NCBI GenBank assembly: GCA_009778715.1
Contig: WRFR01000012.1
Coordinates: 1 to 49,870 of the forward strand
Origin: Coriobacteriia bacterium
GTDB taxonomy: Bacteria; Actinomycetota; Coriobacteriia; WRKU01; WQUG01
Length of the DNA: 49,870 bases
Direction of reading: 5' to 3'
This document shows, in pieces, positions 1,933 through 31,852 of the stretch; the first letter of the stretch is position 1, and each line of letters starts with the position of its first letter. The position numbers and the translations under genes were made by a program. A model generated the notes under the pieces. The model saw only the letters and a program-made list of their open reading frames with translations. It searched no databases and was not told the DNA's origin.

Positions 1933-2841
1933 TCAGATTTTACCATGCTGCCCCGGTCCTGATAACGCCGTGACTGCTTCATCGACCGTAAGAGGCCGCG
2001 CCGCGCTCTCCAGGCGCTCGAACAATTCAGCCAGGATCGGCGGCCGGATGTTAGAAGCCGCGAGCAGATCGGCGTGCTCGAAGATCTCCGCCGGCGTGCC
2101 AGACAGGACGATCTCGCCGCCAGCGCGCAGTACATAGCAGTAATCAGCAATCTCGGCTACGGCGTCGATGTCATGGGTCGTCAGCACGATGCTCACTCCG
2201 TCTTCGCGTGAGAGCTCTGCCAGCAGGTCGACGATCTCGCGCCGTGACGCGGGGTCCAACCCCTCGAAGGCCTCGTCCAGGATCAGGAGTTCGGGGCGCG
2301 TCAATAGCGCGCCAGCTAACGCGACCTTGCGCTTCTCGCCGCCCGAGAGGCTCTGGGGGGTGCGCCCGGCCAGCTCGGTGATGCCTAACCGCGCCATGAT
2401 CTCGGTAGCTGCTAGCTCGATCTGCTCCCGCTCCCAACCGTACTGGCGCGCAGAGAAGCAGACGTCGTCATAGACAGTCGGCATGATGAGCTGGACGTCG
2501 ACGTTTTGCAGCACCACGCCGATGCGCTGGCGGATCGTGCGCCACTCCTGATGCGGGTCAACGCCGAAAACGCGCACGACGCCCTCGTCGGACTTCAACA
2601 GACCCAATAAGTGAGCAAGAAGCGTGGATTTGCCGGCGCCATTGGGTCCCAGGAGCACGGTCCGCTCGCCCTTGTGCGCGCAAAAGTCAAGCCCACACAG
2701 GTGCACCGCGGTCCCATCATCAAAGCTATGCAGCACACAGCTGACGTAGGCGATGTCGGCCGGGTGAGGCCCGTGGCGATGCAGGTGTTTCTGGCAGAGC
2801 GCGCAGTCAGGCGCTCCCGTTGCAGTGCGTGGGACGTCCAT
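1933..2841 (-). CDS. cbiO: Energy-coupling factor ATPase CbiO/NikO (Ni/Co transport)
   Basis: ATP-binding subunit of an ECF-type importer. It contains Walker A GPNGAGKST (about residues 67-75), the signature LSGGEKRKV, Walker B LLILDEAFEGLDP and the H-loop TTHD. The ATG at 2841 overlaps the cbiQ stop by one base and has an AAAGGAA site, so it is preferred over a GTG one codon up. The protein begins with an unusual Cys/His cluster (CALC, then KHLHRHGPH, residues 13-26) ahead of the ATPase domain, which could bind or sense metal. With cbiM and cbiQ it forms a complete cobalt/nickel transporter. Confidence 0.92.
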   Translation of the reverse strand: MDVPRTATGAPDCALCQKHLHRHGPHPADIAYVSCVLHSFDDGTAVHLCGLDFCAHKGERTVLLGPNGAGKSTLLAHLLGLLKSDEGVVRVFGVDPHQEWRTIRQRIGVVLQNVDVQLIMPTVYDDVCFSARQYGWEREQIELAATEIMARLGITELAGRTPQSLSGGEKRKVALAGALLTRPELLILDEAFEGLDPASRREIVDLLAELSREDGVSIVLTTHDIDAVAEIADYCYVLRAGGEIVLSGTPAEIFEHADLLAASNIRPPILAELFERLESAARPLTVDEAVTALSGPGQHGKI

Positions 2842-3479
2842 CACGCATTTCCTTTCGTGTCGATACGCAAGTCTCCATCGTAGCCACGCAGGCCGAGCAC
2901 TTCATAGTCGTGTTCGGCCAGGTCGAGCGCCATCACCATGAGCGCCCCGAACAAACCGCCGAGGTTACGCATCAGGGCGAGCGGATGGCGCCAGGACAGC
3001 CCGCCCCGCAGCCGCAGCGCGGTAAGCAGGTTGCCGAGCAGTTCCCCTAAGATGAACAGGCTGCGATAGGCCATAAGCAACGAGTCGTTGAGCAGCTGGG
3101 GTAAAATGCGCCCGGTCAGGGCAAAGATTCGCGGATAGGGGGTCGAAAGCACCAGACTGACAGCGGCAAGCGCCGTGCTGAAGGTTTTGAGCAGCAGGAC
3201 TGCGGTCAGTGTCCAACCAGGACGCAGAGAGATTGCCAGCAGGATAGAGAAGATGAGCGGGTAGGCTGCCAGGCTGATCAGCAACCGGGGGCGCAGCCGC
3301 GCAGACAGCCCGAGGCCCAGCACCAGCGCGGACAGCCCCGCAAGCACCCACGGGTTCCAGCTGATGATCGCGCCGGTGATCACGGCGGCAAGTCCCAGGA
3401 GCTTGATGGCTACGGGAGTGCGGTGGAGCCACCCACCAGGCGTGGCGGTCGCGCTTCGATCGATGTCAGCCAACCGCAT
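2841..3479 (-). CDS. cbiQ: ECF transporter transmembrane subunit CbiQ
   Basis: A 212-residue integral membrane protein of the EcfT/CbiQ family. It couples the ATPase to the substrate-binding CbiM in the cytoplasmic membrane. Five or so hydrophobic helices are visible, and the region after LMAYRSLFILGELLGNL contains the coupling-helix type sequence ALRLRGG, with a second ALxLRG-like motif near the end (EVLGLRGYDGD). The start has GAGGAGG six bases upstream and lies inside the cbiM 3' end (14-bp overlap). This tight coupling implies one operon with cbiM and cbiO. Confidence 0.92.
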   Translation of the reverse strand: MRLADIDRSATATPGGWLHRTPVAIKLLGLAAVITGAIISWNPWVLAGLSALVLGLGLSARLRPRLLISLAAYPLIFSILLAISLRPGWTLTAVLLLKTFSTALAAVSLVLSTPYPRIFALTGRILPQLLNDSLLMAYRSLFILGELLGNLLTALRLRGGLSWRHPLALMRNLGGLFGALMVMALDLAEHDYEVLGLRGYDGDLRIDTKGNA

Positions 3480-4272
3480 CAGGCGCCTCCTCAGATGACA
3501 GAAGGGGGTCAGGCGCCGTTTCGTCAGCTGCTCCCTTTTTGCTCCCGTTGCTACCGAGCGTCCCGGGGCGCAGCCGCTGCAGATAGACCAGGGCCACGCT
3601 GGTCACGCTCGCCTCGATCGCCCAGCCAAAGGGCCCCAACACCGCGACCACAGCGATGAAGGTCGAAAGCGAGAGCTGGTCGGCGCTGTCGGAGGCTGCC
3701 TGGCGCGCCTGCGCGGTGGTACTGGCGCCCGCCTGTGCCTCCGCCCGCCGCGCACTGAGCGCAGGCGTTGCCAAAGCGACTACCCCTACAGTCAGGGAGG
3801 TAGCAAGCGCCAGTGCCAGTACGGTCGCGATCGCTCCGGAGACGGCTGTGCGGGTCCGGATGTTTCTGATCACCCTTCTTAGGACAATGCGAAGGCCTGC
3901 GAACAGCGCCCAACCTGCGATCATCTCGATCGAGAGTACGAGGGTGTTCAGGCCAATGACGGTCACACCTCCGTGTCCTACCAGCGCGAGGAAGGTCTCA
4001 GTGATGAGCGCAGCCAAAGGCGCCAGGATCGGCCCCAGGATGATCCCGGTGATGACGCTGAGGTTTAAGTGGTAATCAAGTGGCGCGATCTCCAGCGCCA
4101 TCGCGATGACCATCAAGGCGGCGCAGATGCCGACCAGGGGTACTTTGCGCCGCAGGTCCCAATGCTTGCGGCCCACCGTGCAGACGACCATGACCCAGAT
4201 GATTGCGACAGCCCACCCACACGTCCAGAGCCATACAGGAAGGACTCCATCAGGTATGTGGATGTGGGACAT
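3466..4272 (-). CDS. cbiM: ECF transporter substrate-binding permease CbiM/NikM
   Basis: The N terminus MSHIHIPDG is the metal-binding signature of the CbiM/NikM family, whose N-terminal His residues coordinate Ni2+ or Co2+. Several membrane helices follow, including LNLSVITGIILGPILAPLAALITETFLALVGHGG. The later part (about residues 145-240) has two more helices around an Ala-rich segment, which may replace the separate CbiN/NikN subunit; no such gene is present. Metal specificity cannot be read from sequence, but a nickel hydrogenase 9 kb away makes nickel plausible. The last residues are encoded by a copy of a dispersed repeat (3494-3526). Confidence 0.9.
   Translation of the reverse strand: MSHIHIPDGVLPVWLWTCGWAVAIIWVMVVCTVGRKHWDLRRKVPLVGICAALMVIAMALEIAPLDYHLNLSVITGIILGPILAPLAALITETFLALVGHGGVTVIGLNTLVLSIEMIAGWALFAGLRIVLRRVIRNIRTRTAVSGAIATVLALALATSLTVGVVALATPALSARRAEAQAGASTTAQARQAASDSADQLSLSTFIAVVAVLGPFGWAIEASVTSVALVYLQRLRPGTLGSNGSKKGAADETAPDPLLSSEEAPDAVG
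3494..3526. repeat. Dispersed palindromic repeat, family B, copy 1
   Basis: The core GGGGGTCAGGCGCC is flanked by imperfectly complementary arms (TGACAGAA and TTTCGTCA). It matches the copies at 37521-37555 and 46116-46143. This copy lies inside the 3' end of cbiM, where it encodes the C-terminal tail just upstream of the cbiQ ribosome site. Confidence 0.6.
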
Positions 4273-6725: not shown

Positions 6726-7694
6726 ATGGCATGGCATCCAATTGAGGCGTTCCGTAATCCTGTCACGCGTCCGCGTGCGATCATTTGGGCCGGAGTCGTT
6801 CTGGTCGTATTGCTGGTGTTCGTGACCGTCGCTATCGCTGCGACCTCAAGCTATTGGTTCTGCGCTGAAGGCTGCCATAAGGTTCAGGATGACGCAGTAG
6901 CCGCGTATGACCGGGGCACTCACAACCAGGTATCCTGCCTCGCGTGCCATCTGCCAGCGAACGCTAACCCGATCATTTTCCTCTATCATAAAGTCCACTC
7001 AGCGATTGGCGAGCTCCCCCTGACGTTTGCGAATACGTTCGAGGTTCCGCTGAATCCTTTGAGCAAGGTTTCTCTTTCCAGCGAAGAGTTCCCTGACACC
7101 CAGTGCACCCAGTGCCATGACATGCAAACGCGTCCGGTGACAAGCAGTAGTGGGATCATCTTTGATCATTCAACGCACTCAGAGATGAAGATCCGCTGTA
7201 CGTTCTGTCACAATCGCGTGGGGCATAACGAGGATGGCCTGGCGCTCAAGGGCGTCCAGCCTAAGACAGGCGAGAAAGCGTACCAGCATCCCAATTACCT
7301 GACGATGGATGGTTGCTTCCGCTGCCACAGTCTGGATAAGGACGCTGTTGCGTCAGGACAGTGCAACGTATGCCACACTCAGACTGATATTGCTACGCTT
7401 AAGCCGAGTGATCACACGGCGAACTTCCAGCAGACCCATGGCAAGCTCTTCATCGAACAGGTAATGAAGGTCAATGAGACTGAGAAGGAGACGGGCCAGC
7501 AAGCGCCGACGCCAGCAAGCGTCCAGAAGGATCTCGATAACCTTGCTGCGGGCAAGGGTACCGGGTCTGCGGCAAGCGATAACTTTGCGTGGCCGGTTGC
7601 GCCGATCGGAACAGTTAACACCTGCTACACCTGCCACACCAAGGCGGACTGCGAAGCTTGTCATGTGCAGAAAGGCATCCACTACCAGCTGTAA
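6726..7694 (+). CDS. Membrane-anchored multiheme cytochrome c (NapC/NrfH-like / cytochrome c3 family)
   Basis: A 322-residue protein with one N-terminal membrane helix (about 19-41) and an extracytoplasmic part with seven CxxCH heme sites: residues 71-75, 127-131, 158-162, 197-201, 213-217, 300-304 and 309-313. An eighth, atypical CX3CH site (CAEGCH, 46-51) lies right after the helix. The layout resembles quinol-oxidising NapC/NrfH anchors or c3-type electron carriers. No catalytic partner (nrfA, napA) is adjacent, so the acceptor is unknown; the hydrogenase 5 kb downstream is a possible but unproven partner. The ATG at 6726 has AGAAGGGTG upstream. Confidence 0.88.
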   Translation: MAWHPIEAFRNPVTRPRAIIWAGVVLVVLLVFVTVAIAATSSYWFCAEGCHKVQDDAVAAYDRGTHNQVSCLACHLPANANPIIFLYHKVHSAIGELPLTFANTFEVPLNPLSKVSLSSEEFPDTQCTQCHDMQTRPVTSSSGIIFDHSTHSEMKIRCTFCHNRVGHNEDGLALKGVQPKTGEKAYQHPNYLTMDGCFRCHSLDKDAVASGQCNVCHTQTDIATLKPSDHTANFQQTHGKLFIEQVMKVNETEKETGQQAPTPASVQKDLDNLAAGKGTGSAASDNFAWPVAPIGTVNTCYTCHTKADCEACHVQKGIHYQL

Positions 7695-8879: not shown

Positions 8880-10340
8880 ATGAGAAAGGCGCACCTTTTG
8901 AGTATGACTCCTGGAGATATGAGCGCGTTGTACCGCTCGCTCCCCAATATTGACGAGATCCTGGGTGCGGACGGGATAGCGGACGTGATCGCCACCGGTG
9001 AACTGCCACGCGATCTGGTTCTGCGTTGCGCGCGCGAGGAACTGGAGGCGCTGCGGAGCGCGATCGCCCAGGGCAAGCGCTCAGAGCCGGTCGTGCTCGA
9101 TGAGGTCACCGCCAGCGTCAGGGCGGCTGTCGCCGCTGCCCAGCAGCCCTCCCTGCGCCGCGTGATCAACGCGACGGGCATCGTGATCCACACAAACCTG
9201 GGCCGCTCGGTGCTCCCGGAGAGCGCGCTTGAGGAAGTCATCGCTACCAGCCAGGGCTATACCAACCTGGAATATGACATCGCCGCAGGTGAGCGTGGGC
9301 ATCGCGGGGATCATGTCGAATCTCTCATCTGTGAGATTACAGGCGCCGAGGCTGCGCTGGCGGTCAACAATAACGCTGCCGCCGTCCTTCTGACGCTGGC
9401 AGCCCTGGCAGCGGGCAAAAAGACGATCGTCTCACGAGGGCAGCTGGTCGAGATCGGCGGGAGCTTCCGCATCCCGGATATCATGGCGGCTTCCGGGACG
9501 GTCATGGTCGAGGTCGGCACGACGAATAAAACCCATCTCAGCGACTACGCTCATGCCGTCGGGGATCGCACTGGTCTTCTGTTTAAGGCTCATACCTCGA
9601 ACTATCAGTTGGTCGGTTTTACTGAAGAGGTCAGCCTGGTCGACCTGGTAGCGCTGGGGGCAGAGCGGGGAGTTCCTGTGGTCGAGGACCTGGGCAGCGG
9701 CGTGCTGCTGGATCTCTCAGCTTACGGATTGCCTGCTGAACCGACGGTCCAGGAAAGCCTTGCAGTTGGCGCTGACGTCGTGACGTTTTCGGGGGACAAG
9801 TTGCTGGGCGGGCCTCAGGCCGGTATCATCTGCGGCAAACGGAGCGTGCTCGCACGCTTGCGAAGCCACCCGCTGGCGCGTGCGCTGCGCCTTGACAAGA
9901 TGACCTTGGCGGCACTCGAAGCGACCCTGCGCCTGTATCGTGATCCTGCAACAGCCGTGAACTTGATCCCAACCCTGCGCGCCCTGACGATGCCAATGGA
10001 GCGGTGTCGCCAACAGGCCGAACAACTTGCTGCCGCCCTGCGCGAGGCGGCCGACAGCAGCGGGCTTGGCCCCGCGCTGAACCTCGAGGTCTGCGGTGAG
10101 ATGAGCCTGGCGGGTGGTGGCTCGCTTCCGGGCGCCGAGATCCCGACGGCTGTCGTGGCGCTGGCCACCGAGAAAGTCTCGACCGCAGCGTTGGAGCAAC
10201 GCCTGCGCGCGCTGCCCGTGCCAGTAGTCGCGCGCGTTCATGAAGAGCGTCTGCTCTTTGATGTACGCACGCTCTCCGATGATGATATCGAGCTGTTGGT
10301 ACCCGAGCTCGCGACCCTGTTCGCCGAACTGGCTGGGTAA
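8880..10340 (+). CDS. selA: L-seryl-tRNA(Sec) selenium transferase
   Basis: SelA is a PLP enzyme that converts Ser-tRNA(Sec) to Sec-tRNA(Sec) using selenophosphate. The family opening LYRSLPNIDEIL is present, then RRVINATGIVIHTNLGRS. The PLP-binding lysine is in FSGDKLLGGPQAG (Lys307). The length of 486 aa is close to the usual 460-470. The ATG at 8880 has no clear ribosome site; an internal ATG at 8904 is a possible alternative. It is followed after 5 bp by selB and then tRNA-Sec, forming the core of the selenocysteine system. Confidence 0.95.
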   Translation: MRKAHLLSMTPGDMSALYRSLPNIDEILGADGIADVIATGELPRDLVLRCAREELEALRSAIAQGKRSEPVVLDEVTASVRAAVAAAQQPSLRRVINATGIVIHTNLGRSVLPESALEEVIATSQGYTNLEYDIAAGERGHRGDHVESLICEITGAEAALAVNNNAAAVLLTLAALAAGKKTIVSRGQLVEIGGSFRIPDIMAASGTVMVEVGTTNKTHLSDYAHAVGDRTGLLFKAHTSNYQLVGFTEEVSLVDLVALGAERGVPVVEDLGSGVLLDLSAYGLPAEPTVQESLAVGADVVTFSGDKLLGGPQAGIICGKRSVLARLRSHPLARALRLDKMTLAALEATLRLYRDPATAVNLIPTLRALTMPMERCRQQAEQLAAALREAADSSGLGPALNLEVCGEMSLAGGGSLPGAEIPTAVVALATEKVSTAALEQRLRALPVPVVARVHEERLLFDVRTLSDDDIELLVPELATLFAELAG

Positions 10341-10345
10341 CGCCC

Positions 10346-12349
10346 ATGCCCCAGGCTGGACGCTACGCGGGAGTACTTGGGACTGCCGGGCACATCGATC
10401 ATGGTAAATCAACGCTCATCAAAGCGCTGACCGGTACTGACCCCGATCGCCTTAAGGAGGAAAAGGAGCGGGGGATCACGATCGAGCTCGGTTTCGCGGA
10501 GCTCGACCTGCCGGGCGGGATCCGCCTGGGCGTCGTCGACGTACCTGGCCATGAGAAGTTCATCCGCCACATGGTGGCCGGTGCGACCGGCGTCGATATC
10601 GCGCTGCTCGTGGTGGCTGCTGACGACGGCGTGATGGTGCAGACGCGCGAGCATCTCTCCATTCTGCAGCTGTTGGGGGTGTGCCAGCTTGTGGTCGCGC
10701 TCACCAAGATCGATCGCGCGGGCGCCGAGCTCACCGAGCTCGCGGCGGCAGACGTCGCAGCACTTCTGGAGCAGACGCCCTATGCGGGCGCGCCGATCTT
10801 GCCAGTCTCTGCGGTTACGGGCGAAGGACTTGACGGGCTGCGCGCAGCTCTTGCGCAGGCTGCCAGTGAACTTCCACGTCGTGATACCACGGGGGTCGCG
10901 CGCCTTCCTATCGACCGCGTTTTTACGATAGGGGGCGCAGGCACGGTGGTCACCGGGACGCTATGGGAGGGAACCGTCGCAGCTGGCGATAAGCTGGAGT
11001 TGGTGGGTCCCGGCGCTGAATTGCGGATCCGCCAGATCCAGGAACACGGCCAGCCAGTTGACCGTGCGAGCGCCGGCCAGCGGGTCGCGCTCAATATTGT
11101 GGGCGCCTCAAAAGACGAGATAGCCCGTGGAATGGTCATCGCCACGCCGGGCCTCTTGCATCAGACCCTGTGCGTCAACGCACAGTTCAGTTACCTGGCT
11201 GATCCCGCGCATCCCGCTCCCCTGCGATCAGGCACTACGGTGCATCTGCATCACGGGACCAGTGAGGTGCTGGCCCGGCTCCTGGTGTTGGAGCGTGAGA
11301 GCGCGGAGGAGGGGAGCGCGGCGGGCGCCCTCAGCAGCAAGCGGGAGCTTGTTCCCGGGCAGTCAAGCTTCATCCAGTTGCGCCTGTTTGAGCCGCTGAC
11401 CATGCGCGTCGGCGATCGCTTCATCATCCGTGCGGGTGATCCGCTCTACAGCATCGGCGGGGGAGTGGTACTTGATACGGCGCCACGTCTTCGTACCCAC
11501 CTGGCGCCCGGCGAGTACGCCTTGCTCCAGGCGCTTTATCAGGGTGATACGAGCCAGGCGGTGCGCCTTGCCCTGGAGAGTGTGGCAGTACCGGTGACGA
11601 GCGCCCAGTTGGCAATCCAGTTGGGCCTGGAGCGTTCTGAGGTGGCGGTGCTGCTTGACCAGACTGACGAGGGTGTGGTCACGCGTCTTCGCGCGGGCGA
11701 CGCCAATCCTGAGACTGCGTATCTGTCAGTCGAACACGCCGACCAGTTGCTGGCATGCATCGAGCAGGCTTTGCTCGCCTGGCACGAAAGCAATCCACAG
11801 CAGGCCAACCTTGCCTCGCGTGCGCTTCTTGATCGGTTGCCTGTGCGCATGCGTCCAGAGCCTGAGTTCTTCGACGCATTGCTGCAGCAATTGGCAGCCA
11901 GCGGCGTGGTGATGATCGAGGCGGGCAGGGTCGCGCATAAGCGGGCGGCTGCAAGCGTCCAGCGCCAGCTTGGCGAGCTGCGAAGTCGCGTCCTTGCGCG
12001 CCTGGAGCCCCAAGGCCTGTCTCCGGAGAGCATCGCTGACCTGCAGGCAGCCTTAGGAGCGCAGCGCTCCTTATTGGCACAAGCCCTGGGAGAGTTGTCG
12101 CGCGACCATGAGCTCGTTCGTCTGAGTGGCGACTTATACTTCACCCCGGCTGCACTGGAGGGTGCGCGTACGCGCTTGGTTGAGGCGCTGCAAGCGACGC
12201 CCGGAGGGCTGGGCGCCGCTGAGCTGCGCGACGTGCTTGGCGTGAGCCGCAAGTACGCGATCCCCGTGCTGGAGTACTTCGACGCGCGCGGAGTAACGAT
12301 CCGCGAGGGCGACCTGCGCCGCCTGCGCTCCTCAAGTAAGAGTGTTTGA
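10346..12349 (+). CDS. selB: Selenocysteine-specific elongation factor SelB
   Basis: A 667-residue translational GTPase that carries Sec-tRNA(Sec) to UGA codons marked by a SECIS hairpin. GTPase motifs: GHIDHGKST (15-23), GITIELGFA (switch I), DVPGHEKF (switch II) and TKID. EF-Tu-like beta barrels follow, and the C-terminal third holds winged-helix repeats that bind SECIS (ending LRDVLGVSRKYAIPVLEYFDARG). It lies 5 bp after selA and 21 bp before tRNA-Sec. Its targets within the window are predicted to be the hydrogenase large subunit and SelD. Confidence 0.95.
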   Translation: MPQAGRYAGVLGTAGHIDHGKSTLIKALTGTDPDRLKEEKERGITIELGFAELDLPGGIRLGVVDVPGHEKFIRHMVAGATGVDIALLVVAADDGVMVQTREHLSILQLLGVCQLVVALTKIDRAGAELTELAAADVAALLEQTPYAGAPILPVSAVTGEGLDGLRAALAQAASELPRRDTTGVARLPIDRVFTIGGAGTVVTGTLWEGTVAAGDKLELVGPGAELRIRQIQEHGQPVDRASAGQRVALNIVGASKDEIARGMVIATPGLLHQTLCVNAQFSYLADPAHPAPLRSGTTVHLHHGTSEVLARLLVLERESAEEGSAAGALSSKRELVPGQSSFIQLRLFEPLTMRVGDRFIIRAGDPLYSIGGGVVLDTAPRLRTHLAPGEYALLQALYQGDTSQAVRLALESVAVPVTSAQLAIQLGLERSEVAVLLDQTDEGVVTRLRAGDANPETAYLSVEHADQLLACIEQALLAWHESNPQQANLASRALLDRLPVRMRPEPEFFDALLQQLAASGVVMIEAGRVAHKRAAASVQRQLGELRSRVLARLEPQGLSPESIADLQAALGAQRSLLAQALGELSRDHELVRLSGDLYFTPAALEGARTRLVEALQATPGGLGAAELRDVLGVSRKYAIPVLEYFDARGVTIREGDLRRLRSSSKSV

Positions 12350-12370: not shown

Positions 12371-12467
12371 GGAGCCGGAGCCGTCCTGGTGGGCGGTGCG
12401 GTCTTCAAAACCGTTGTGAGGGGTGAAGAACCTCTTGGGGGGGTTCGATTCCCTCACGGCTCCGCCA
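12371..12467 (+). tRNA. selC: tRNA-Sec (anticodon UCA)
   Basis: The anticodon stem GCGGT/ACCGT encloses loop CTTCAAA with anticodon TCA, which reads UGA. The acceptor GGAGCCG pairs with CGGCTCC, followed by G and an encoded CCA. The T-arm is GGGGG-TTCGATT-CCCTC, and the variable arm is long (about 20 nt, with GAGG/CCTC pairing), as in tRNA-Sec. Total length is 97 nt, longer than ordinary tRNAs. An eighth acceptor pair, usual in bacteria, would be G-A and is not formed. It sits directly after selB, very probably on the same transcript. Confidence 0.95.
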
Positions 12468-12602: not shown

Positions 12603-12953
12603 AAACGATCCCTTTGCCGTAGGCTTTCACACAGCTGCTCGCGCGCACCGTTTGCGGGAGGGGAAAACCACTCGCGCTAACATTTTTCTTATTTATATCT
12701 TTACAAAAGATTTTGCGATTTCTGCATAATTGTGTGTATATCAGGCTGCTCCGTAGTGACTTAGTGGAGACATTCTCAGATATTATGAATCCTGTTGATA
12801 ACTATAAGTAAAACTGATTATACAAATCAAACTGGTTGTTTCACAATAGATATGGAAATGATACATCCGATACACAGGCGAGTCTGTGGGGCCAAAGGGC
12901 TGTACTTGTGAAGAGGGTGTATCCTGATTGAAATACACAAGGAGGTGTATGGC
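12603..12953 (+). promoter_or_regulatory. Promoter/leader region of the hydrogenase operon
   Basis: About 350 bp of AT-rich sequence without a credible gene. It holds possible promoter boxes (TTTACA at 12700 and CATAAT at 12725, 19-bp spacing, weak). An inverted repeat TGATT-N5-AATCA lies at 12815-12829, a small hairpin CACAG/CTGTG at 12873-12888, and GTGTAT-N10-ATACAC at 12917-12938 directly before the AAGGAGG ribosome site. The last could modulate translation start. No known riboswitch class was recognised. Confidence 0.4.
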
Positions 12954-14141
12954 ATGGCAGAAGCGACTGATCTCTATGGGCGCCTTGCTGCCCGCGGCAT
13001 TACGCGTCGTGACTTCTTGAAGTTCTGCGGCACACTTGCGGCGGTCATGGGGCTTTCACAGACGGCGGTCCCGCAGATTGGCGCCGCAATCGCAGGCGCG
13101 GCTGAATCCGGTCTGCAACCCGCGCTCTGGATTAATGGCGCAGCTTGTACGGGCTGCACTGAATCTATCGCACAGGCAACGGATCCAAACGTTGCCGACA
13201 TCGTTCTGGACATCTTGTCTCTGCCTAAGATCGAGACAGTTCAGATGGCTACTGGCGAGTATGCCGAAAAAGCAGGTGAGGACTTTGCTCAGGCCAACAA
13301 GGGCAAGTACATCCTGATCTGCGAAGGCGCAGTCACAACGGGTATTGATGGTAACTTCCTGCGCATTGCAGGGGAGCCCTTCCAGGATTCCCTGGTGTCC
13401 TTCGCGACCAACGCGCTCGCTATCGTGGCGGTTGGTTCCTGCGCGGTCGACGGTGGTTGGACGCGTGCATATCCGAACCCAGCTGGCGGAACAGGCGTCA
13501 AGCCTTATCTCGACGGCAAGGGTATCAAGACGCCAGTCGTCAATCTTCCCGGTTGCCCCGTCAATCCGCTTGAGATCATTGCGGTCGTTGTGGATGCACT
13601 CATGACGGGTGGCGTGGACAAAGTGGTCGCTGGTCTCGATCGGCAGAATCGCCCGAAGTATCTGTATGGTTCAACCATTCATGATAACTGCGAGCGTCGT
13701 GGTCACTTCGAGAATGGCGAGTTCGTTTATCAGTTCGGTAGCCAGGAAGAAGCTGACAACTATTGTCTGTATGCGTTAGGTTGCAAAGGCCCCCAGACCT
13801 ATCGTCATTGCAGCAAGCTGCGTTGGAACGACAATATCTCCTGGTGTGTTGCCTCGGGCGGTCCGTGCATCGGCTGCGGTAACTTCAACTGGGTTGATAA
13901 CAACACTCCGTTCCGCTCACGTATGCGCCGCGTCCATGTTGGTTCAATCGGTGGACCAGGTGGTATCGGCGTTGCCAAGGGCATGGCGGCACTCGGCGGC
14001 GTAGTCGTCGTCGGTATTGGCGCTCATGCGCTTGCCAGTAAAGCTACGCATCGTATCGGCAAGAACTCAACGCTTAAGAACGAGGACATGAAAGAGTACG
14101 ATGCCAAGAGAATGAAGAAGGGAGGGAGTGCAGATGCCTAG
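12954..14141 (+). CDS. hyaA: [NiFe]/[NiFeSe] hydrogenase small subunit (Tat-exported)
   Basis: A 395-residue electron-transfer subunit. It has a twin-arginine signal (TRRDFLKF, Arg18-Arg19) and a hydrophobic stretch, the proximal cluster motif CTGCTES, and the distal/medial cluster region (DNCERRGHF, CLYALGCKGPQTYRHC, PCIGCGN). A C-terminal membrane helix (about 340-365) anchors it. Where standard enzymes have WPVQ with a Pro, this protein has WCVA (Cys298), giving a fourth ligand and a predicted medial [4Fe-4S] cluster as in [NiFeSe] hydrogenases. The ATG at 12954 is 8 bases after AAGGAGG; a GTG at 12945 overlaps that site and is rejected. It overlaps the large subunit by 8 bp. Confidence 0.95.
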   Translation: MAEATDLYGRLAARGITRRDFLKFCGTLAAVMGLSQTAVPQIGAAIAGAAESGLQPALWINGAACTGCTESIAQATDPNVADIVLDILSLPKIETVQMATGEYAEKAGEDFAQANKGKYILICEGAVTTGIDGNFLRIAGEPFQDSLVSFATNALAIVAVGSCAVDGGWTRAYPNPAGGTGVKPYLDGKGIKTPVVNLPGCPVNPLEIIAVVVDALMTGGVDKVVAGLDRQNRPKYLYGSTIHDNCERRGHFENGEFVYQFGSQEEADNYCLYALGCKGPQTYRHCSKLRWNDNISWCVASGGPCIGCGNFNWVDNNTPFRSRMRRVHVGSIGGPGGIGVAKGMAALGGVVVVGIGAHALASKATHRIGKNSTLKNEDMKEYDAKRMKKGGSADA

Positions 14142-15855
14142 TACGAATGTGGTTATCGATCCGCTGACTCGTATCGAGGGTCACCTGCGTATCGAAGCTG
14201 TTTCAGAGAACGGCGTCATCAAAGATGCGTGGGTCTCCTCAACGAACTATCGTGGTATGGAGACCGTTCTGCAGGGGCGTGCTCCTGAGGATGCTCATTA
14301 CATCACGATGCGTATCTGCGGCGTATGCCCGACCTCTCACGGCCATGCCTCCAGCATGAGCGTTGAGAACGCTTTGGAGATTAAGATCCCCAACGGCGCA
14401 CGCTTAGTTCGCAACCTGCTTGAGGGCGCTGAGTACATCCACAGTCATATTCTGTGGTTCTATACCCTGGCTGCGCTCGACTATGTCGATCCGGCCCAGG
14501 CTCTTCAAGCTAATGTCGCAGACACCTATGCACTGGCTGTACAAGCTGGTACCGGTACCTCTGACTTCGGCGCGGTCAAAAAACGCCTGGAGAATCTTGT
14601 CAAAGGCGCGAGCAATCCCGTCACCGACCTCTCGATCTTCTCGAACGGCTGGTGGGGCTACAATCCACTGGATCCAGCTGAAGCTGCCAAGGCGGCTGCG
14701 CTGTATGCTCCTATGCCGCCCGAACTGCATTTAATTGCGGTAGCGCACTATCTTGAGGCTATCGAGATGCAGGCAGAGGCTGCGCGGATCATCGCGCTTA
14801 TCGGCGGCAAGTTCCCGCATCCGATGACTTCGGTTGCTGGTGGTACTGCCTGGAGCCCCAACGATGATCGTATCGCTGACGTGCTCTATCGCTTTAAGAA
14901 ACTCAATGACTGGGTCCATGGCACTATGATCCCTGACACCCTGGCGATCGCTCCTTTCTATAAGGGCGCATTGGAGTATGGCGGTGGCTGCGGCAACTTC
15001 CTGGCCTGGGGCGTTTTCGATCGCAAGGATCTTGTTCATGAGAATCGCTACATGCCTGCTGGTATCGTACGCGCTTCTGATCTTACGACCGTCGAAAAAG
15101 CCGACGTGTCCAAGGTCAAAGAGTACGTTGAGCACAGTTGGTACACGTCACCGACCGGCCTGAATCCGCAGAATGGCGAGACCAAGGCTATCGACTCCTG
15201 GAATGACCAGAGCTATAACCTAGACGGCCAGTATTCCTGGGGCAAGGCGCCACGCTACGATGGCAAGCCGATGGAAGTCGGCCCGCTGTCTCGTATGATC
15301 GTTGCTTATGTGACCGGTGGCGACAACAACGCAGCGGTCAAGTCGATCGTCGATACTGCTCTTGGTGCACTGGGCGCTGCGGGTCATCCCGAAGTGCTCG
15401 TATCCCTGCTCGGTCGTGTTGCTGCCCGTAACCTTGAGTGTGCGGTCGTCAGCGACTGGACACTTGAGTGGTGCAACGAGCTGGTCGAGGCCAAGAAGGG
15501 TGGAACAGCTGATCTGTTCGAGCCTTATTCGGTCACAAGCCATGCTTCTGGTGCTGGTCTGTGGGAGGCCCCTCGTGGCGCCCTCGGCCACTTCATCAAC
15601 ATCAAGGGTGGCCGTATCGACAGCTATCAGGTCGTCACTCCTTCAACGTGGGACTTGAGCCCTCGTGACAAGGATGGCGTTCGTGGTCCGATGGAGGAAG
15701 CACTCGTTGGAACTCCGATCGCTGACGTCGAGCGTCCTATTGAAGCTGCGCGAATCGTTCGCAGCTTTGATCCTTGAGTCGGTTGCGGCGTTCACGTGAT
15801 TGAACGCAGGACTGGCAAGACAGGAACGGTCTATTCAAGAAAGTGGGGTGCATAA
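14134..15855 (+). CDS. hyaB: [NiFeSe] hydrogenase large subunit, UGA-encoded selenocysteine (Sec548)
   Basis: The catalytic subunit, which oxidises or produces H2 at a Ni-Fe centre. The N-terminal metal motif is RICGVCPTSH (60-69, ligands Cys62 and Cys65). The frame meets TGA at 15775-15777 directly after FDP. Reading on gives DP-U-VGCGVH, the C-terminal ligand motif DPCxxCxxH with Sec for the first Cys (Sec548, Cys551, His554). A 19-residue peptide (VIERRTGKTG through SRKWGA) then ends at TAA 15853-15855. Cleavage after His554 by the M52 protease encoded at 16616 fits. A stop at TGA would remove half the nickel ligands. The ATG at 14134 has GGGAGGG upstream; total 573 aa. By gene set and lineage it may belong to the Coriobacteria-type group 1 enzymes. 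Confidence 0.93.
15788..15807 (+). promoter_or_regulatory. Predicted SECIS hairpin of the hydrogenase large-subunit gene
   Basis: GCGTTCA (15788-15794) pairs perfectly with TGAACGC (15801-15807), with loop CGTGAT. It starts 10 nt after the UGA, and the loop lies 17-23 nt beyond it, the distance at which bacterial SelB reads its hairpin. The loop contains GU, as expected for SelB contact. It lies within the coding sequence. Confidence 0.75.
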
Positions 15856-15857
15856 GC

Positions 15858-16535
15858 ATGCATAAGCCATTAAAAGAGCAGCATCCCCCTATTTTTGTTG
15901 CGACACACTGGATTAACTTCGTTGCCCTCGTTATTCTGATGCTGTCGGGCCTCTACATCCATTTCCCAGCTTGGAGCGGGTTTATGGGTGTTGCCCGTGG
16001 TGTCCATATTTTCTTCGGTATCATCATCTTCCTGAACGTGATTGTTCGTATCGTACTGGCCTTCTTCGTGAAGGACTCCATTACGCAGGGCTCCCGCGAG
16101 AAAGAGCTTGATATCAAGAACTTCTGGTTCCAGAAAGAGAATCGTCATCAGTTCTTCCCGATGCTTCGTTGGTATCTCTTCATGAAGAAGGATTATCCGA
16201 TCTCGGCGAAGTACGCGACCCTGCAGAAGATCAGCTATATCGCGATCGCGATCATGCTGCTTGCTGTCAGCTACACAGGCTTCTGCCTGTGGGGCGTGAC
16301 CAATCAGCTCGGTATCTTTGCTATTGGTAACGTCTGGTTTGCCAATATTGGCATCCATGCGGCTCCCGGTGGCGGGGCGCTTATGGCGACGCGCATCATC
16401 CATTACATCATTGCTTGGCTGTTGGTCATCATTGGGATGATCCATGTCTACATCGCTACGATGCATGGCCTGAGCGCTTGGCGTATGATCTTCCTGCACA
16501 AGGAGGACGCGGATGCGCTTGAGGGTTCTCACTAA
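15858..16535 (+). CDS. hyaC: Hydrogenase b-type cytochrome subunit
   Basis: A 225-residue membrane protein of the Ni/Fe-hydrogenase cytochrome b / cytochrome b561 type. It has four membrane helices and conserved His residues at their ends (FVATHWINFVAL, GVHIFFGII, IHYIIAWLLVIIGMIHVYIATMHG). It takes electrons from the small subunit to the menaquinone pool. The ATG at 15858 lies two bases after the read-through stop of the large subunit; a GTG at 15843 would overlap the selenoprotein tail and is not preferred. Its placement just past 15855 supports read-through of the UGA. Confidence 0.92.
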   Translation: MHKPLKEQHPPIFVATHWINFVALVILMLSGLYIHFPAWSGFMGVARGVHIFFGIIIFLNVIVRIVLAFFVKDSITQGSREKELDIKNFWFQKENRHQFFPMLRWYLFMKKDYPISAKYATLQKISYIAIAIMLLAVSYTGFCLWGVTNQLGIFAIGNVWFANIGIHAAPGGGALMATRIIHYIIAWLLVIIGMIHVYIATMHGLSAWRMIFLHKEDADALEGSH

Positions 16536-16615: not shown

Positions 16616-17176
16616 ATGACTGAAGCAAAACATATCCTGCTGATGGCTGTGGGCAACCCCACGGTCGAAGATGACGGCATCGGCCCCTACTGCCTCCAAT
16701 GCTTGCTCGAATGGTTTGAATTCCCTCCTGATCTTCGTTGTGTTGATGAGGGTGACTTGGGGCCATCGATTCTCATGGATCTTGATGAGGTGCATGAATT
16801 GATCGTTCTTGACGCCGCCAAGGAAACGGGACATCCTGCCGGGACCGTCCTGATCATGACGCCTGCGGAGATGGCGGCCAACGCGGTGTTGCATACCGCT
16901 CACGACATGGCGCTGGTCGACGTGCTGGGCATGGCCGCGCTGACGGATAAGGCCCCGGAACATACGGTCGTTGTTGGCATGCAGGTGGCAGGCTTGCGCG
17001 AGTGGGTGCTGGATATGACGCCGGAAGTGCAGGCGGCGGCGCCTGTCATGTGCGCAGCAGCGCTTGACCAGTTGCGGCGCCTGGGTGTGGAGTTCACGCC
17101 AAAGCCAGGCGCTCCCATCCCGGATGAACTTTTCGACGCCCTGGAGCACTTTGCTCCCCAAACATCTGAAAGCTGA
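16616..17176 (+). CDS. hyaD: Hydrogenase maturation protease (peptidase M52, HyaD/HycI type)
   Basis: A 186-residue protein that removes the C-terminal peptide of the large subunit after nickel insertion. Family motifs are VGNPTVEDDGIGPYC (metal-ligand acid in the GNxxxxDDGxG loop), VLDAAK (the second Asp ligand) and the His in TAHDMALVDVLGMA. Its presence here means the large subunit must have a cleavable C-terminal extension, which exists only if the UGA at 15775 is read through. A second in-frame ATG lies at 16607. Neither start has a clear ribosome site outside the preceding hairpin. Confidence 0.9.
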   Translation: MTEAKHILLMAVGNPTVEDDGIGPYCLQCLLEWFEFPPDLRCVDEGDLGPSILMDLDEVHELIVLDAAKETGHPAGTVLIMTPAEMAANAVLHTAHDMALVDVLGMAALTDKAPEHTVVVGMQVAGLREWVLDMTPEVQAAAPVMCAAALDQLRRLGVEFTPKPGAPIPDELFDALEHFAPQTSES

Positions 17177-17867: not shown

Positions 17868-18935
17868 ATGACTGAGAAAGTTCGTTTGACGCAACTCTCG
17901 CATAAATCTGGTTGAGCAGCCAAATGGGGTCCGGCGGACCTCCAACGAGTATTAGACCAGATCACCGGGGCACAAGCCGACCACATCGTGCTCGGTTTTG
18001 AGACTAATGATGACGCTGCGGTCGTGCGCTTGGCCGATGGCCTGGCGCTCCTGCAGACGGTCGACTTCTTCACGCCGATCGTTGATGATGGCTATGACTT
18101 TGGCCGGATAGCGGCAGCCAACGCTCTTTCTGACGTCTATGCAATGGGTGGCGAGCCGCTCTGCGCGATGAATCTGCTGGCGTTTCCCTGTTCTCTGCCG
18201 TCCGAGATCGTAGCCGATATCGTGCGCGGTGGCGCTGAGGTCTGCGCCCATGCCGGCGCTCCGGTGGTGGGAGGACACACGATCGATGACGAGGAGCCAA
18301 AGTTCGGGCTTTCGGTCACTGGGCGTATTGACCCTGACCGGATACTTTATAATGCCGGTGCGCACCCCGGCGATTTGTTGGTGTTGACCAAACCCCTGGG
18401 AACCGGGCTTATCGGCACAGCACTCAAGCAGGGGATCCTTGATGAAGCTGACGATGACGCGCGTGTAGCGATCGAATCGATGGCCCATCTTAATCGGGAG
18501 GCGTCGCGTGCGGCTCAGGCTTTAGCGGCGTCAGAAGATGCGAAAAACCCGGTCCACGCCTGCACTGATGTGAGCGGCTTCGGATTGGTCGGCCATGCGC
18601 ATGAGATGGCCCAGGCTTCTGGGTGCTCGGTGCAACTGCGCGTCGCTGACCTGCCACTCCTGCCTCGTGCGCGGGAGCTGGCTGCTGCTGCGGTCACACC
18701 GGGCAAGACCGACGAACTGATAACGTGGGCGGCAGACTTTGTTATCGATGCGATCGATACCGATGATAATGCCCGCCTGATCTGCGACCGCCTGATCTGC
18801 GATCCCCAGACTTCAGGAGGGCTGCTGTTGGCGATCGAGCCGTCTGCAGCTGCACGTTATCTTGAGGCGGTTGACGAGGCCTGGGTCATTGGTGAGCTCA
18901 CCGATGGGCCCTCCGGGCAGGTAACGCTCCTCTGA
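17868..18935 (+). CDS. selD: Selenophosphate synthetase SelD containing selenocysteine (Sec16)
   Basis: SelD makes selenophosphate from selenide and ATP. The gene starts at ATG 17868, with AGGAGG at 17851, and reads through TGA 17913-17915. This gives the N-terminal active-site segment LSHKSG-U-AAKWGPADL, where other SelD proteins have Cys or Sec, followed by the conserved Lys. Downstream are the family motifs (NDDAAVVRL, QTVDFFTPIVDDGYDFGRIAAANALSDVYAMGG, VVGGHTIDDEEPKFGLSVTG, DVSGFGLVGHAHEMA, CDPQTSGGLLLA). Total 355 aa. A start at 17988 would lose 40 residues, including the nucleophile. A SECIS-like hairpin lies at 17926-17942. Confidence 0.95.
17926..17942 (+). promoter_or_regulatory. Predicted SECIS hairpin of selD
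   Basis: GGGGTCC (17926-17932) pairs with GGACCTC (17936-17942) over seven base pairs including one wobble, with loop GGC. It begins 10 nt after the UGA, the same distance as in the hydrogenase gene, which supports both. Confidence 0.7.
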
Positions 18936-26735: not shown

Positions 26736-26942
26736 GTATCTTCTGGTAAATTTTTTTAATTAATACGGTAGAAAAAGGTAACGTTTTCCACTTGAGTTCC
26801 CCTACATGATAAAGACGTTGAAATAAGCACGGCTTATGACGCTTTTTGCTCGATGGCACAGAGGGTTTTGAGAAAGTGAATAAGCTGCAATAACTTGGCT
26901 CCAGGTGCTGGAGCTTGGAGACAAGAGAACGGGGGGGGCAGA

Positions 26943-29183
26943 GTGACGGTACGCCTTGCGATTAAAAAGGCAATAATTGTAGTGCTGGTGACTGCCTGTG
27001 TTATATCGGCAGGCGTAATTCCCTGCTCGGTATACGACGCGAATGGGACGATTGATTCTTCGGCGCAACCAGCCGGGTTATCTTCAACGGAGACGACCGG
27101 GCAAGCTGCTTCGTCATGCAGCACAGAAAGCGCTTTAGTACCGGCTGACCAGCCTTCCAATGTTACGACGACCGAGACGCCCAGTGTCGCTCCCACCAAC
27201 CCTGGTGTCGTAAGTCCTGCACCGTCAACTATCACTACAGTGGCGCCGAAGCCTACAGTGGTGCCGAAGCCTACAGTCGCGCCATCCGTGCAGAGCCCGA
27301 CAGTTGCGCCATCTGCCCCCTTAGTAACTGCGGGCCCGAATCTGAGTCTCAACGGGTTAATAGGTATTCAGGCAACGGATGCGATCATTGACATGGACTT
27401 GAGCAGTATGTACTTTGGTTCAGTCAAGAACGACTCTGATTACTTCTATCAGCATGCGCCTGCGACTACTTCGTATGGATCAATCAACAATGCTTATCCA
27501 CCCTATGTACGCTATGACCCCGCATACTTCAAGTGGGACTGGAACGCCAGCGATAATTATTCGACCAGCTATGTCGTCATGCATACGATGCTCCTCAACC
27601 AGATCGCCGACCCCAACGCCTCGGATATCAACGCAGCAAGCAATATCATCAAAGGCAACTTCATCGCTTATTGCACGGACAAAGACTATAGCTACTGGGC
27701 TGATGTCGCACTACAAGGCGCGCTTCTGTCAGACTACCGCCCAGTCACGCAGCTCACGCCAGATATGCAGGCTAAGATTCGCTGGATAGTGGAACATTCG
27801 CTTGAAGTGGAAAACTGGCAGGAAGTACTTGCCGATGTGGGCCTGCAGCCGAGCGACCTGAGTTCCAACAATGCCCTCCTGGCAGCCCCCTTCCAGACGT
27901 ATCCAACTGCCTACCCAAATGGTCAACCTAACGGGATATCTGCATCGGACGCACAGTCCGGCATCTTCAACGGCGCAGAAGCGATGATCTATTACTGCAC
28001 CCAATTGTCTATCTGGGAGCTTTTGCGTGGAACTGAAGGCAACCCTGACAACGGTTCGTTTCTTACTGACACGTATTGGATAAACCCTTACGCGAATCCG
28101 GATCTCTATCCCAGTACTTCCGCGGTCGTCACAAAGCTCTGTCAAGCGATCCTGGATAAAGTGGCCGGGATAAACGATACCAATTATGGCAACCAGTACA
28201 CGAACTATCGCCCGGAGATTAGCGTGGCTGCCGATCAGTCGCAAGCCACGATCAGCGGCACCTATTATCATATCCCGGTGAGTTGCACGCAGGTCAACGT
28301 AATTCCTACCACTGATCCGCACGTGGTCACGATACAGCCAGACGATCAAGTGACCTACACGGTGACCGCGGACGGGGGAGTGGCCAGATTCGACAATGGG
28401 AGTACGTCGATTACGGCTAATTATTCTGATACCGTGACGCTGCTTTTGCCTCTCGGTTATACGGGGCCGGTCAGCATCGAGGCATCGGTTGCCAACGCAA
28501 GCACTGCCGATGGTAACTATTACTACCTGACCGAGATCGGCGCTTATCCGATGGATGAGTCGCTCCAAAGCAGGTTCCAGGCGATGGTAACAGCGGGTTT
28601 TATCGAAGGACGCCCGCAGACTGACCTGCAGTTCAATAGCGAGGGCTATTCACAGGAGACGACGCTGACTGGCAGTAAATACCTTACCGGTATCACGAGT
28701 ACCGATAAGGTCTTCAGCTTCACACTCGATGAGATCAACGTTTTGGGCGGGTCGGTGACAAACTCCGCGATCCAGACGGCGCAGGTTACGGGGGCGGGTA
28801 GTTTCTCGTTCGAATTGACTGATCTTCAGCCCGGCGACCACCGCTTCTATCGTATAAGCGAACAAGTGCCCAACCCGGTTCCAAGAGGTTGGACATATGA
28901 CACAAATTACTATGACGTATCAGTTTGGGTATCAACCGATGGGGTGTTGAGCGTCACGTATTATCTCAACGGCTTACGCGCGAATATCCGGGGTACGCCC
29001 GACTTCACAAACGCCTTTGCGGGACCACGTCTGCCTGATGCCGGCGGCGTTGGTGTGATCGCCTTCATACTCATGGGAGCGCTGATGATGTTGCTTCCCA
29101 GTGCGGTGTTCATTCAGTTACAGAGGAGACGAGAGTACTTGAAGGAGGGCGGCGACAACGAAGCAAAAGAAACAGACAGCTAG
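26943..29183 (+). CDS. Thioester-domain surface adhesin with sortase signal (pilus tip candidate)
   Basis: A 746-residue wall protein starting at GTG 26943 (MTVRLAIKKAIIVVLVTACVISAGVIP, a signal peptide). A Thr/Val/Pro stalk (about 40-135) precedes a thioester domain in which FIAYCTDKDY (Cys244) and YYCTQLSIWELL (Gln354, the TQxxxW motif) would form an internal Cys-Gln thioester for covalent host or surface binding. The C-terminal part (GAGSFSFELTDLQPGDHRFYRISE) looks like an FctA/Spy0128-type isopeptide pilin domain. The sorting signal is LPDAGG, a variant of LPXTG, followed by a helix and basic tail. It leads the pilin-sortase operon. Confidence 0.85.
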   Translation: MTVRLAIKKAIIVVLVTACVISAGVIPCSVYDANGTIDSSAQPAGLSSTETTGQAASSCSTESALVPADQPSNVTTTETPSVAPTNPGVVSPAPSTITTVAPKPTVVPKPTVAPSVQSPTVAPSAPLVTAGPNLSLNGLIGIQATDAIIDMDLSSMYFGSVKNDSDYFYQHAPATTSYGSINNAYPPYVRYDPAYFKWDWNASDNYSTSYVVMHTMLLNQIADPNASDINAASNIIKGNFIAYCTDKDYSYWADVALQGALLSDYRPVTQLTPDMQAKIRWIVEHSLEVENWQEVLADVGLQPSDLSSNNALLAAPFQTYPTAYPNGQPNGISASDAQSGIFNGAEAMIYYCTQLSIWELLRGTEGNPDNGSFLTDTYWINPYANPDLYPSTSAVVTKLCQAILDKVAGINDTNYGNQYTNYRPEISVAADQSQATISGTYYHIPVSCTQVNVIPTTDPHVVTIQPDDQVTYTVTADGGVARFDNGSTSITANYSDTVTLLLPLGYTGPVSIEASVANASTADGNYYYLTEIGAYPMDESLQSRFQAMVTAGFIEGRPQTDLQFNSEGYSQETTLTGSKYLTGITSTDKVFSFTLDEINVLGGSVTNSAIQTAQVTGAGSFSFELTDLQPGDHRFYRISEQVPNPVPRGWTYDTNYYDVSVWVSTDGVLSVTYYLNGLRANIRGTPDFTNAFAGPRLPDAGGVGVIAFILMGALMMLLPSAVFIQLQRRREYLKEGGDNEAKETDS

Positions 29184-29200
29184 AAACAGGAAAGGTAATC

Positions 29201-29239
29201 ATGACAAGTAAGTTAGGAAGAGGTGTGAAAGAAGTATGA
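29201..29239 (+). CDS. Possible 12-codon leader ORF before the pilin gene
   Basis: ATG 29201 is preceded by AGGAAAGG and encodes a short basic peptide (MTSKLGRGVKEV). Its TGA overlaps the pilin ATG as ATGA at 29236-29239, so the two could be translationally coupled. It could also be chance. Confidence 0.3.
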   Translation: MTSKLGRGVKEV

Positions 29240-30882: not shown

Positions 30883-30935
30883 TTAAGACGTTCAATCAGG
30901 CTTATTACGATAAGCCAGGGTGATAGCTTAAAGCA

Positions 30936-30973
30936 TGCTGGTCCCAGAGGCATACCGCTTTCTGGGGCCAGCA
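30936..30973 (+). terminator. Hairpin between pilin and sortase genes (attenuator candidate)
   Basis: TGCTGGTCCCAGA (30936-30948) pairs with TCTGGGGCCAGCA (30961-30973) over 13 bp with one wobble, loop of 12 nt. No T-run follows. It could reduce read-through so that pilin is made in excess over sortase. Confidence 0.55.
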
Positions 30974-31021
30974 CTGCACGGGAAAGGGTTCGACATAGGT
31001 CAAGGAAACGATAAGTGGGTC

Positions 31022-31852
31022 ATGCGCAGGCGCATTTTCACAACCAGCATACTTGTGGTGGTCTTTCTGATTGGGCTGGCGGTGATGCTGTATCCCGTCA
31101 TCAGCAACTACTGGAACACCTTAGTGCAATCGCGAGTTGTCTCTAACTACACTAAAACGGTCAACCAGATGGACGACGGGCAGATTCGTGCATTGATGGC
31201 GGCGGCGCAAGCTTATAATGAGCAGCTACCCAATAGCTTGGATCGCTTCGCTCTGTCTTCGGATCAGTACGCTCGATACAACTCGATACTGGATGTCGGT
31301 CAGGATGGAGTCATTGGCACCCTGACGATACCGAAGATATCAGTCAAACTCCCGATTTATCATGGTACCGATCCAACGGTCCTTGAAGTGGGTTTAGGGC
31401 ATTTACCCGGGTCGTCGTTTCCCATTGGTGGAGCTGGCACGCACACCGCGATCAGCGGGCATAGGGGGCTTCCTTCCGCGGAACTTTTGAGCCATATTGA
31501 TCGCCTGGTCGTCGGGGATCGCTTTCAGATCACCGTGCTTAAGCATGTGGCGACGTATCAAGTTGATCAGATTAAAGTGGTGCTGCCCGACGACCTGGAT
31601 GATCTAGCCTTTCAACCGGGGCAGGATCTGGCAACACTTATCACCTGTACGCCCTATGGCGTCAACACGCACCGCCTGCTTGTGCGCGGCCACCGGGTCG
31701 CTGATCAGGCGCCGATGCAAGTCAGGACTCCGGCGTTTGATGCGACGACTCTGGAGATCCTTATTGCGGTTTTGCTGCTGGTAATGGTGGGCATTGCCTT
31801 CAGTTTGAAGTTCAGGAAGAAAAAAAGAAGTTCGGACGCTGATGTTACTTGA
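31022..31852 (+). CDS. Class C (pilus) sortase
   Basis: A 276-residue sortase with membrane helices at both ends (about 6-28 and 241-263), as in pilus-polymerising class C enzymes. The catalytic triad is visible: SGHRGLP (His147), LITCTPYGVNTHR (Cys209) and LLVRG (Arg222). A lid motif is not obvious. It should polymerise the LPATG pilin and add the LPDAG adhesin. The ATG at 31022 follows AGTGGG; an earlier in-frame start at 30935 would run through the hairpin and is unlikely. No housekeeping sortase is in the window. Confidence 0.92.
   Translation: MRRRIFTTSILVVVFLIGLAVMLYPVISNYWNTLVQSRVVSNYTKTVNQMDDGQIRALMAAAQAYNEQLPNSLDRFALSSDQYARYNSILDVGQDGVIGTLTIPKISVKLPIYHGTDPTVLEVGLGHLPGSSFPIGGAGTHTAISGHRGLPSAELLSHIDRLVVGDRFQITVLKHVATYQVDQIKVVLPDDLDDLAFQPGQDLATLITCTPYGVNTHRLLVRGHRVADQAPMQVRTPAFDATTLEILIAVLLLVMVGIAFSLKFRKKKRSSDADVT

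Follow-up and report, generated by a model that had tools for sequence, protein, structure and literature searches.

The window analyzed here (the whole stretch of 49,870 nucleotides of contig WRFR01000012.1, from a Coriobacteriia bacterium) encodes a group-1-like, probably membrane-bound [NiFe]-hydrogenase whose large-subunit gene has an in-frame UGA at codon 548, and the sequence argues strongly that this codon is read as selenocysteine (Sec), which would make the product a [NiFeSe] enzyme. Insertion of Sec at codon 548 appears likely because TGA is exchanged for Cys codons among relatives, a covarying hairpin follows the UGA, sel genes adjoin the operon, and selD is a second gene with an in-frame UGA. 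What is new here, as placed by sequence comparison, is a Sec hydrogenase clade of Coriobacteriia that is distinct from the HysA type of [NiFeSe] enzymes.

The in-frame UGA and its conservation

The features of the large-subunit gene that bear on this reading are the following:

14134..15855, + strand: [NiFe]-hydrogenase large subunit, 573 residues with the UGA read through (Pfam PF00374, 1.1e-158)
14317..14328, + strand: codons of Cys62 to Cys65 (CGVC), N-terminal nickel-binding motif (invariant alignment columns)
15775..15777, + strand: predicted Sec codon (Sec548), an in-frame TGA replacing the first Cys of DPCxxCxxH (motif, relatives)
15784..15786, + strand: Cys551 codon, second Cys of the C-terminal motif (frame, conserved column)
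15788..15807, + strand: 7-bp hairpin with a 6-nt loop (15795-15800), predicted Sec insertion sequence (SECIS) element (folding, covariation, own-genome covariance-model match)
15793..15852, + strand: His554 and 19-residue C-terminal tail, with predicted M52 cleavage after His554 (frame reading)

The frame runs from ATG 14134 to TAA 15853-15855, and its only in-frame stop is the TGA at 15775-15777, preceded by RSFDP and spanned by the motif DP-U-VGC-GVH, so that the Sec codon stands at the first position of DPxxxCxxH, with Cys551 and His554 after it and a 19-residue tail between VGCGVH and the TAA. An earlier reading of the DNA letters (the sequence-only reading) had described this arrangement with every coordinate right, including the distance of two bases from the TAA to the start of the cytochrome b gene, which is an ATG at 15858 where open reading frame (ORF) callers choose GTG 15843.

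When the window's own genome and 148 others of its class were searched for the large subunit, 124 of the 149 yielded matches, and 90 Coriobacteriia loci picked from the stronger matches were read at the nucleotide level. The codon 548 position is TGA in 75 of these loci, TGC in 12 and TGT in 3, in each case in register within DP-x-x-x-C-x-x-[H/Q], and TAA or TAG occurs there in none of the 90; several weaker matches outside this set contain internal TAG or TAA. Past the UGA, the frame continues in all 75 TGA loci, with DPxxxCxx[H/Q] and a similar tail, and in codons +11 to +17 of these loci 46% of the differences fall at third positions, which may be taken as a modest sign of protein-level constraint. 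Because the TGA is conserved at this codon, with Cys in the other 15 loci, a chance in-frame TGA is excluded. Seventy of the 75 TGA loci belong to the window's own clade (clade C) and the other five (L086-L090) to a second Sec clade (clade B). A scan of named species found 201 relatives, and among the best 80, of which 78 were readable by script, 53 have TGA and 25 Cys, the closest being the termite-gut metagenome-assembled genomes Emb289P4bin29 (81% identity) and Cu122P5bin19 (77%). The termite codes stand for Embiratermes neotenicus (Emb289) and Cubitermes ugandensis (Cu122), according to the accessible part of the source (PMC7024585). The window thus probably derives from a member of the Coriobacteriia living in a termite gut.

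Gene callers agree in ending the protein at the UGA, as the sequence-only reading had foreseen. The window's protein has 7958 database matches, and of the best 120, 118 have DP as their very last residues, the remaining two being Cys proteins; in the lists for clade B and for HysA, 118 of the 120 matches listed end in DP in each. These observations are what one would expect if the UGA were a true stop and the protein ended at Pro547 in a truncated, inactive or differently used form, which we regard as very improbable in view of the persistent frame, motif and tail in 75 of 75 TGA loci, the third-position differences beyond the UGA, and the Cys codons that replace it in 15 relatives. A normal stop with a separate C-terminal piece, the case that the earlier reading had named as contrary to its claim, was not seen in the 90 loci. 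The probable selenium hydrogenases of Coriobacteriia instead appear in databases as cut-off proteins, and Sec may be left unannotated because the NCBI NiFeSe models miss the window's protein.

Within the class, three genomes (G034, G044 and G124; loci L058-L060, L062, L054 and L037) have the large subunit in both a Sec and a Cys version, possibly as a selenium-responsive pair, and would offer a natural comparison of the two forms. Two other Sec large subunits (L023 of G092 and L032 of G114) have Gln in place of the motif's last His (GCGVQ), a change that hits the expected protease cut site and is accompanied by an altered hairpin loop.

The hairpin downstream of the UGA

A SECIS-like hairpin is found just downstream of the UGA in the window, beginning 10 nt past it. 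We observe the same form (class I) in 61 sequences, 56 from clade C and 5 from clade B, and in the 58 distinct ones 97.8% of cells are paired; RNAalifold recovers the helix without prior constraint. The two outer helix pairs covary (42 double-change cells versus a shuffled mean of 17.7, with 0 of 500 shuffles as high), alternating between G-C and C-G (A-U in two rows) with both sides changing, and sliding the hairpin arms abolishes the signal. The helix also steers the protein sequence at its second pair: in all 58 distinct rows, the residue after Glu is Arg (CGN) where the preceding codon has C as its last base and Pro (CCN) where that base is G. Synonymous choice is also frozen within the stem: among the 70 Sec loci of clade C, Val+5 is written as GTT (56) or GTC (14) and in no other way, and codon +9 is GAA for Glu (56), never another Glu codon, or GAC for Asp (14), while Gly+2 uses all four of its codons. 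In the Cys loci, the Glu +9 site is GAG in 12 of 15, and the hairpin is absent from these 15 relatives, with pairing of 49.5% at the class-I positions and 41.0% at those of a second class. That second class, seen in 14 loci (families f5 and f20), is shifted, has a 3-nt loop and is 96.7% paired; no covariation was found in its 14 loci.

A covariance model of class I, in which the window's site is itself included, finds the UGA site in the window's genome at 69.5 bits. The next match, L096 at 20.9 bits, was rejected as a further candidate, there being no recognizable selenoprotein gene at that place. Nine clade-B loci outside the model score 49.6-61.3 bits at the UGA, nine class-II loci 27.1-45.6 bits, and three HysA-like loci 64.4, 46.4 and 32.9 bits, with a fourth HysA-like locus (L193) at only 10.9 bits at or near the site; 13 formate dehydrogenase loci with an in-frame TGA score at most 11.7 bits.

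Selenocysteine genes and the decoding of the UGA

The genes for Sec synthesis and insertion lie on both sides of the hydrogenase genes:

8880..10340, + strand: selA, Sec synthase (TIGR00474, 597.5 bits)
10346..12349, + strand: selB, Sec-specific elongation factor (TIGR00475, 373.1 bits)
12371..12467, + strand: tRNA-Sec with tca anticodon (RF01852, 72.2 bits)
17868..18935, + strand: selD, selenophosphate synthetase, with an in-frame TGA at 17913-17915 in KSG-U-AAK (selD model, read through)

The genome thus has a full selA/B/C/D set, all within about 10 kb, and the proximity of these genes and of the maturation protease claimed by the sequence-only reading is borne out; that reading recognized selD and missed the gene's own in-frame TGA. 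The selD start is ATG 17868, and ORF callers begin at GTG 17988, past the TGA. With the TGA read through, the alignment to the selD model begins at its position 1 and scores 364.3 bits, versus 331.6 for the short form, and on this comparison we consider selD to be the second selenoprotein gene of the window. In 15 of 15 Sec-hydrogenase genomes, hand-picked from the 75 UGA genomes and scored for presence of TGA whatever its position in the gene, one TGA is present in the best match to selD (in one case with a TAG as well).

Across genomes, a tRNA-Sec of at least 60 bits (a threshold chosen to exceed the background from tRNA-like sequences, about 46-54 bits) or a SelB over cut-off occurs in 65 of the 75 genomes that have a large-subunit gene with the UGA, whichever the clade, versus 27 of 74 others (Fisher P = 1.7e-10, in a test that ignores relatedness). 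Clustering of the two systems is local, since a sel gene or tRNA-Sec lies near the hydrogenase in only 4 of 56 named loci (L100, L101, L120 and L131), with flanks of up to 10 kb that were often shorter. Three Cys-only genomes with Sec genes (G016, G019 and G033) have a TGA in formate dehydrogenase matches instead, and the formate dehydrogenase model gave no match in the window's genome (94.7% complete). Glycine reductase searches of this genome yielded nothing, and neither did their controls, so that they do not speak for absence of the enzyme.

Sequence alone cannot separate Sec from read-through that places a different amino acid at the UGA, be it by decoding as Cys or Trp or by near-cognate pairing. 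We nevertheless find such decoding scarcely credible: 6 of the 12 window genes checked terminate in TGA, so that TGA is not a general sense codon here, the genes for tRNA-Sec, SelA and SelB adjoin the operon, SelD has a second in-frame UGA at its Sec/Cys position, and the 15 Cys relatives are without the hairpin. A crude scan of the window for more in-frame UGAs picked out five stops of ordinary appearance and overlooked the two known cases.

Several observations weigh against Sec at codon 548. Ten of the 75 UGA genomes (G046, G050, G074, G100, G106, G112, G116, G134, G140 and G146, with completeness of 70-98%) have neither a tRNA-Sec of at least 60 bits nor a SelB over cut-off, and the link between Sec machinery and hydrogenase is not exclusive, because Sec genes are also present in 13 of 27 Cys-only genomes. 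In the hairpin, two-sided changes affect just 2 of the 7 helix pairs, equal to shuffles (2 versus 2.0), four of the seven pairs are invariant, and the covariation count was made without control for relatedness. The lower stem was rejected as a conserved part, with 74.8% of cells paired; with the two hairpin classes combined in one alignment, RNAalifold returned no structure; single-sequence folding beats shuffles only modestly (z of -0.7 to -3.1), and for the selD hairpin not at all. Of 43 Cys-type loci scored with the class-I model, the highest are two Cys paralogues, L058 (22.4 bits) and L060 (22.2 bits), both with E of about 0.003 and at the homologous site, a weak residual similarity that is perhaps a relic. 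The AlphaFold model of the large subunit (U given as C) has a mean pLDDT of 86.2 and low confidence at residues 550-559 and 561-573 (pLDDT below 50).

If codon 548 is decoded as Sec, SelB and the Sec-tRNA (UCA) would recognize the hairpin past the UGA and insert the residue, and the Ni-Fe center would be held by Cys62, Cys65, Sec548 and Cys551. Of the claim that Sec548 is the terminal nickel ligand, the Sec part agrees with the Cys exchange, the hairpin and the sel genes, and nickel ligation is carried over from the family, as is the role of the CGVC residues Cys62 and Cys65, which we take to be nickel ligands. The neighboring protease would presumably cut the large subunit after His554, as we assume from the family. 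The mature subunit pair would then be exported through the Tat signal of the small subunit, and H2 would supply electrons that reach cytochrome b by way of Fe-S clusters, H2 uptake being the likely direction.

Family position, relatives and neighboring genes

The window's proteins fall short of the models for HysA-type enzymes, with the large subunit scoring 411.1 bits with the HysA model NF045518 (cut-off 780) and 512 bits with NF033181 (cut-off 600), and the small subunit 240.3 bits with NF045520 (cut-off 470). The best solved relatives of the large subunit are Cys-type Desulfovibrio enzymes (425.6 bits, versus 349.4 for HysA), and the same enzymes are the best structural matches of the AlphaFold model (TM 0.87/0.93).

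Trees were built on the part of the large subunit preceding the Sec/Cys residue: a quick tree of 145 rows and a careful tree of 72 of these, selected by hand for spread. Left out were L090, a fragment, and L185, L186 and L192, in which the script did not locate the motif, and the fetched rows do not include partial and weaker matches of the 149-genome search. Both trees contain three separate Sec groups, namely HysA with actinobacterial relatives, clade B, and clade C with the window. In the careful tree, the HysA group is split from all other rows with support of 100/100; clade C (95/97) and the Cys-type enzymes of Coriobacteriia are sister groups, with joint support of 100/100. A single clade of all Sec rows is rejected by the approximately unbiased (AU) test (P = 1.8e-9; 9.5e-7 without P0013 and L182), as is a single clade of B and C (3.6e-6; 1.2e-46). 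The quick tree requires 7 changes between Sec and Cys (6 forced by starred branches) and the careful tree 4, which by hand count are either three gains and one loss or four losses from ancestral Sec. Three Cys rows, L051 (a long branch), P0013 and P0018, lie inside clade C in the large tree, which suggests that Sec was probably lost in these lineages. The near-identical hairpins of the three Sec clades were set aside as proof of one Sec origin, because the VHVxE motif and the hairpin force most bases.

By these sequence comparisons, the window enzyme is not of HysA type and stands in a separate clade; HysA membership was rejected by model cut-offs, tree position and the AU test. The rival view, that it is a standard HysA-type [NiFeSe] hydrogenase taken over from sulfate reducers, would fit the shared ligand position of Sec and the Cys at the medial-cluster position of the small subunit, and it is hardly tenable in the face of those results and of the occurrence of the medial Cys in Cys clades too. 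Small-subunit Cys301 aligns with a Pro of the Desulfovibrio enzyme, and this replacement was rejected as a mark of [NiFeSe] enzymes, since the Cys is present in Sec rows (132 of 135) and Cys rows (43 of 46) alike, and in 181 of 186 loci (many genomes fetched twice). The HysA-type enzyme (Desulfovibrio vulgaris HysAB, PDB 5jsu) resembles that of the window in having Sec for the first Cys of DPCxxCxxH and in database copies that stop at the UGA; it differs in its C-terminal tail. The window's operon also has a cytochrome b gene, unlike hysAB, whose operon we take to be without one. For the [NiFeSe] enzymes of delta-proteobacteria, the accessible text of PMC4730141 describes the same truncation problem and the need for SECIS and sel genes.

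The Cys sister clade of clade C is probably Group 1i of HydDB, to judge from its position, with no reference 1i sequence labelled in the tree; those of its members that were read are unlike the window in being without the UGA and the hairpin. HydDB names this group Coriobacteria-type, and the accessible text of its paper uses 'NiFeSe' three times, for groups 1a, 3a and 3c and not for 1i (PMC5037454). Cultured Anaerosomatales have been reported with Group 1i [NiFe]-hydrogenases whose large, small, cytochrome b and protease genes resemble those of the window, and 'selen' in the accessible text of that paper concerns selenate and selenite (PMC9686372). Clade B (L086-L090, L181, L182, L184, L187 and L194-L198) is a second actinobacterial group of Sec hydrogenases; in L086, L181, L195-L198 and others, the UGA stands for the same ligand as in the window and the hairpin is almost identical. 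Clade B differs from the window in identity (39-46% in the stronger matches) and forms its own branch beside Cys enzymes of Nitrospirota and others, and database names of its relatives include Thermoleophilia and Candidatus Aquicultor.

A literature search for Sec or NiFeSe hydrogenases in Coriobacteriia, Actinobacteria or Group 1i found none, with subscription papers largely outside its scope. In a 2016 survey, selenoproteins labelled 'F420-reducing hydrogenase alpha subunit' are tallied for 26 bacteria, and because its accessible text leaves the lineages unnamed and has no 'Coriobact', enzymes of the window's kind could hide in this count (PMC5029168); nor does 'Coriobact' appear in the accessible text of a 2022 review (PMC9312934). 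We put forward tentatively, with slightly less than even confidence, that a lineage of respiratory hydrogenases spread across the class Coriobacteriia independently acquired selenium at the Ni-Fe site, giving a convergent [NiFeSe] enzyme outside the HysA and methanogen groups, and that the window's Sec machinery may serve little besides the hydrogenase and SelD. [NiFeSe] hydrogenases are valued for their activity and their recovery from oxygen and have been described from few lineages, so that a separate, widespread clade would supply new enzymes. Through the recurring annotation error, probable H2-uptake enzymes from Coriobacteriia, those of termite guts among them, pass for truncated proteins, and a probable selenium dependence is concealed as well.

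The remaining genes of the operon are as follows:

12945..14141, + strand: hydrogenase small subunit with Tat-type signal (profile matches)
15858..16535, + strand: b-type cytochrome subunit of hydrogenase (PF01292 over cut-off; TIGR02125 at 94.5 bits, below its cut-off of 121.5)
16616..17176, + strand: hydrogenase maturation protease (TIGR00072, 105.5 bits, over cut-off), which we take to be of the M52 type

The gene order is small subunit, large subunit, cytochrome b and maturation protease, with selA, selB and tRNA-Sec upstream and selD downstream, and the adjoining cytochrome b and protease genes are the arrangement looked for in Group 1i. Among the 56 named loci, the neighbors of the hydrogenase include the small subunit in 54, cytochrome b in 52 and the protease in 41. 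Upstream of the sel-hydrogenase region, a CbiM-type cobalt uptake gene and an ABC ATPase gene (1933-4272) could be a nickel supply, and close to the sel genes a gene for an NrfH-like multihaem cytochrome c (6726-7694) could encode an electron partner. Farther along, at 26895-31852, the window encodes a sortase and LPXTG-anchored, pilin-like surface proteins with FctA, SpaA and pilin backbone domains.

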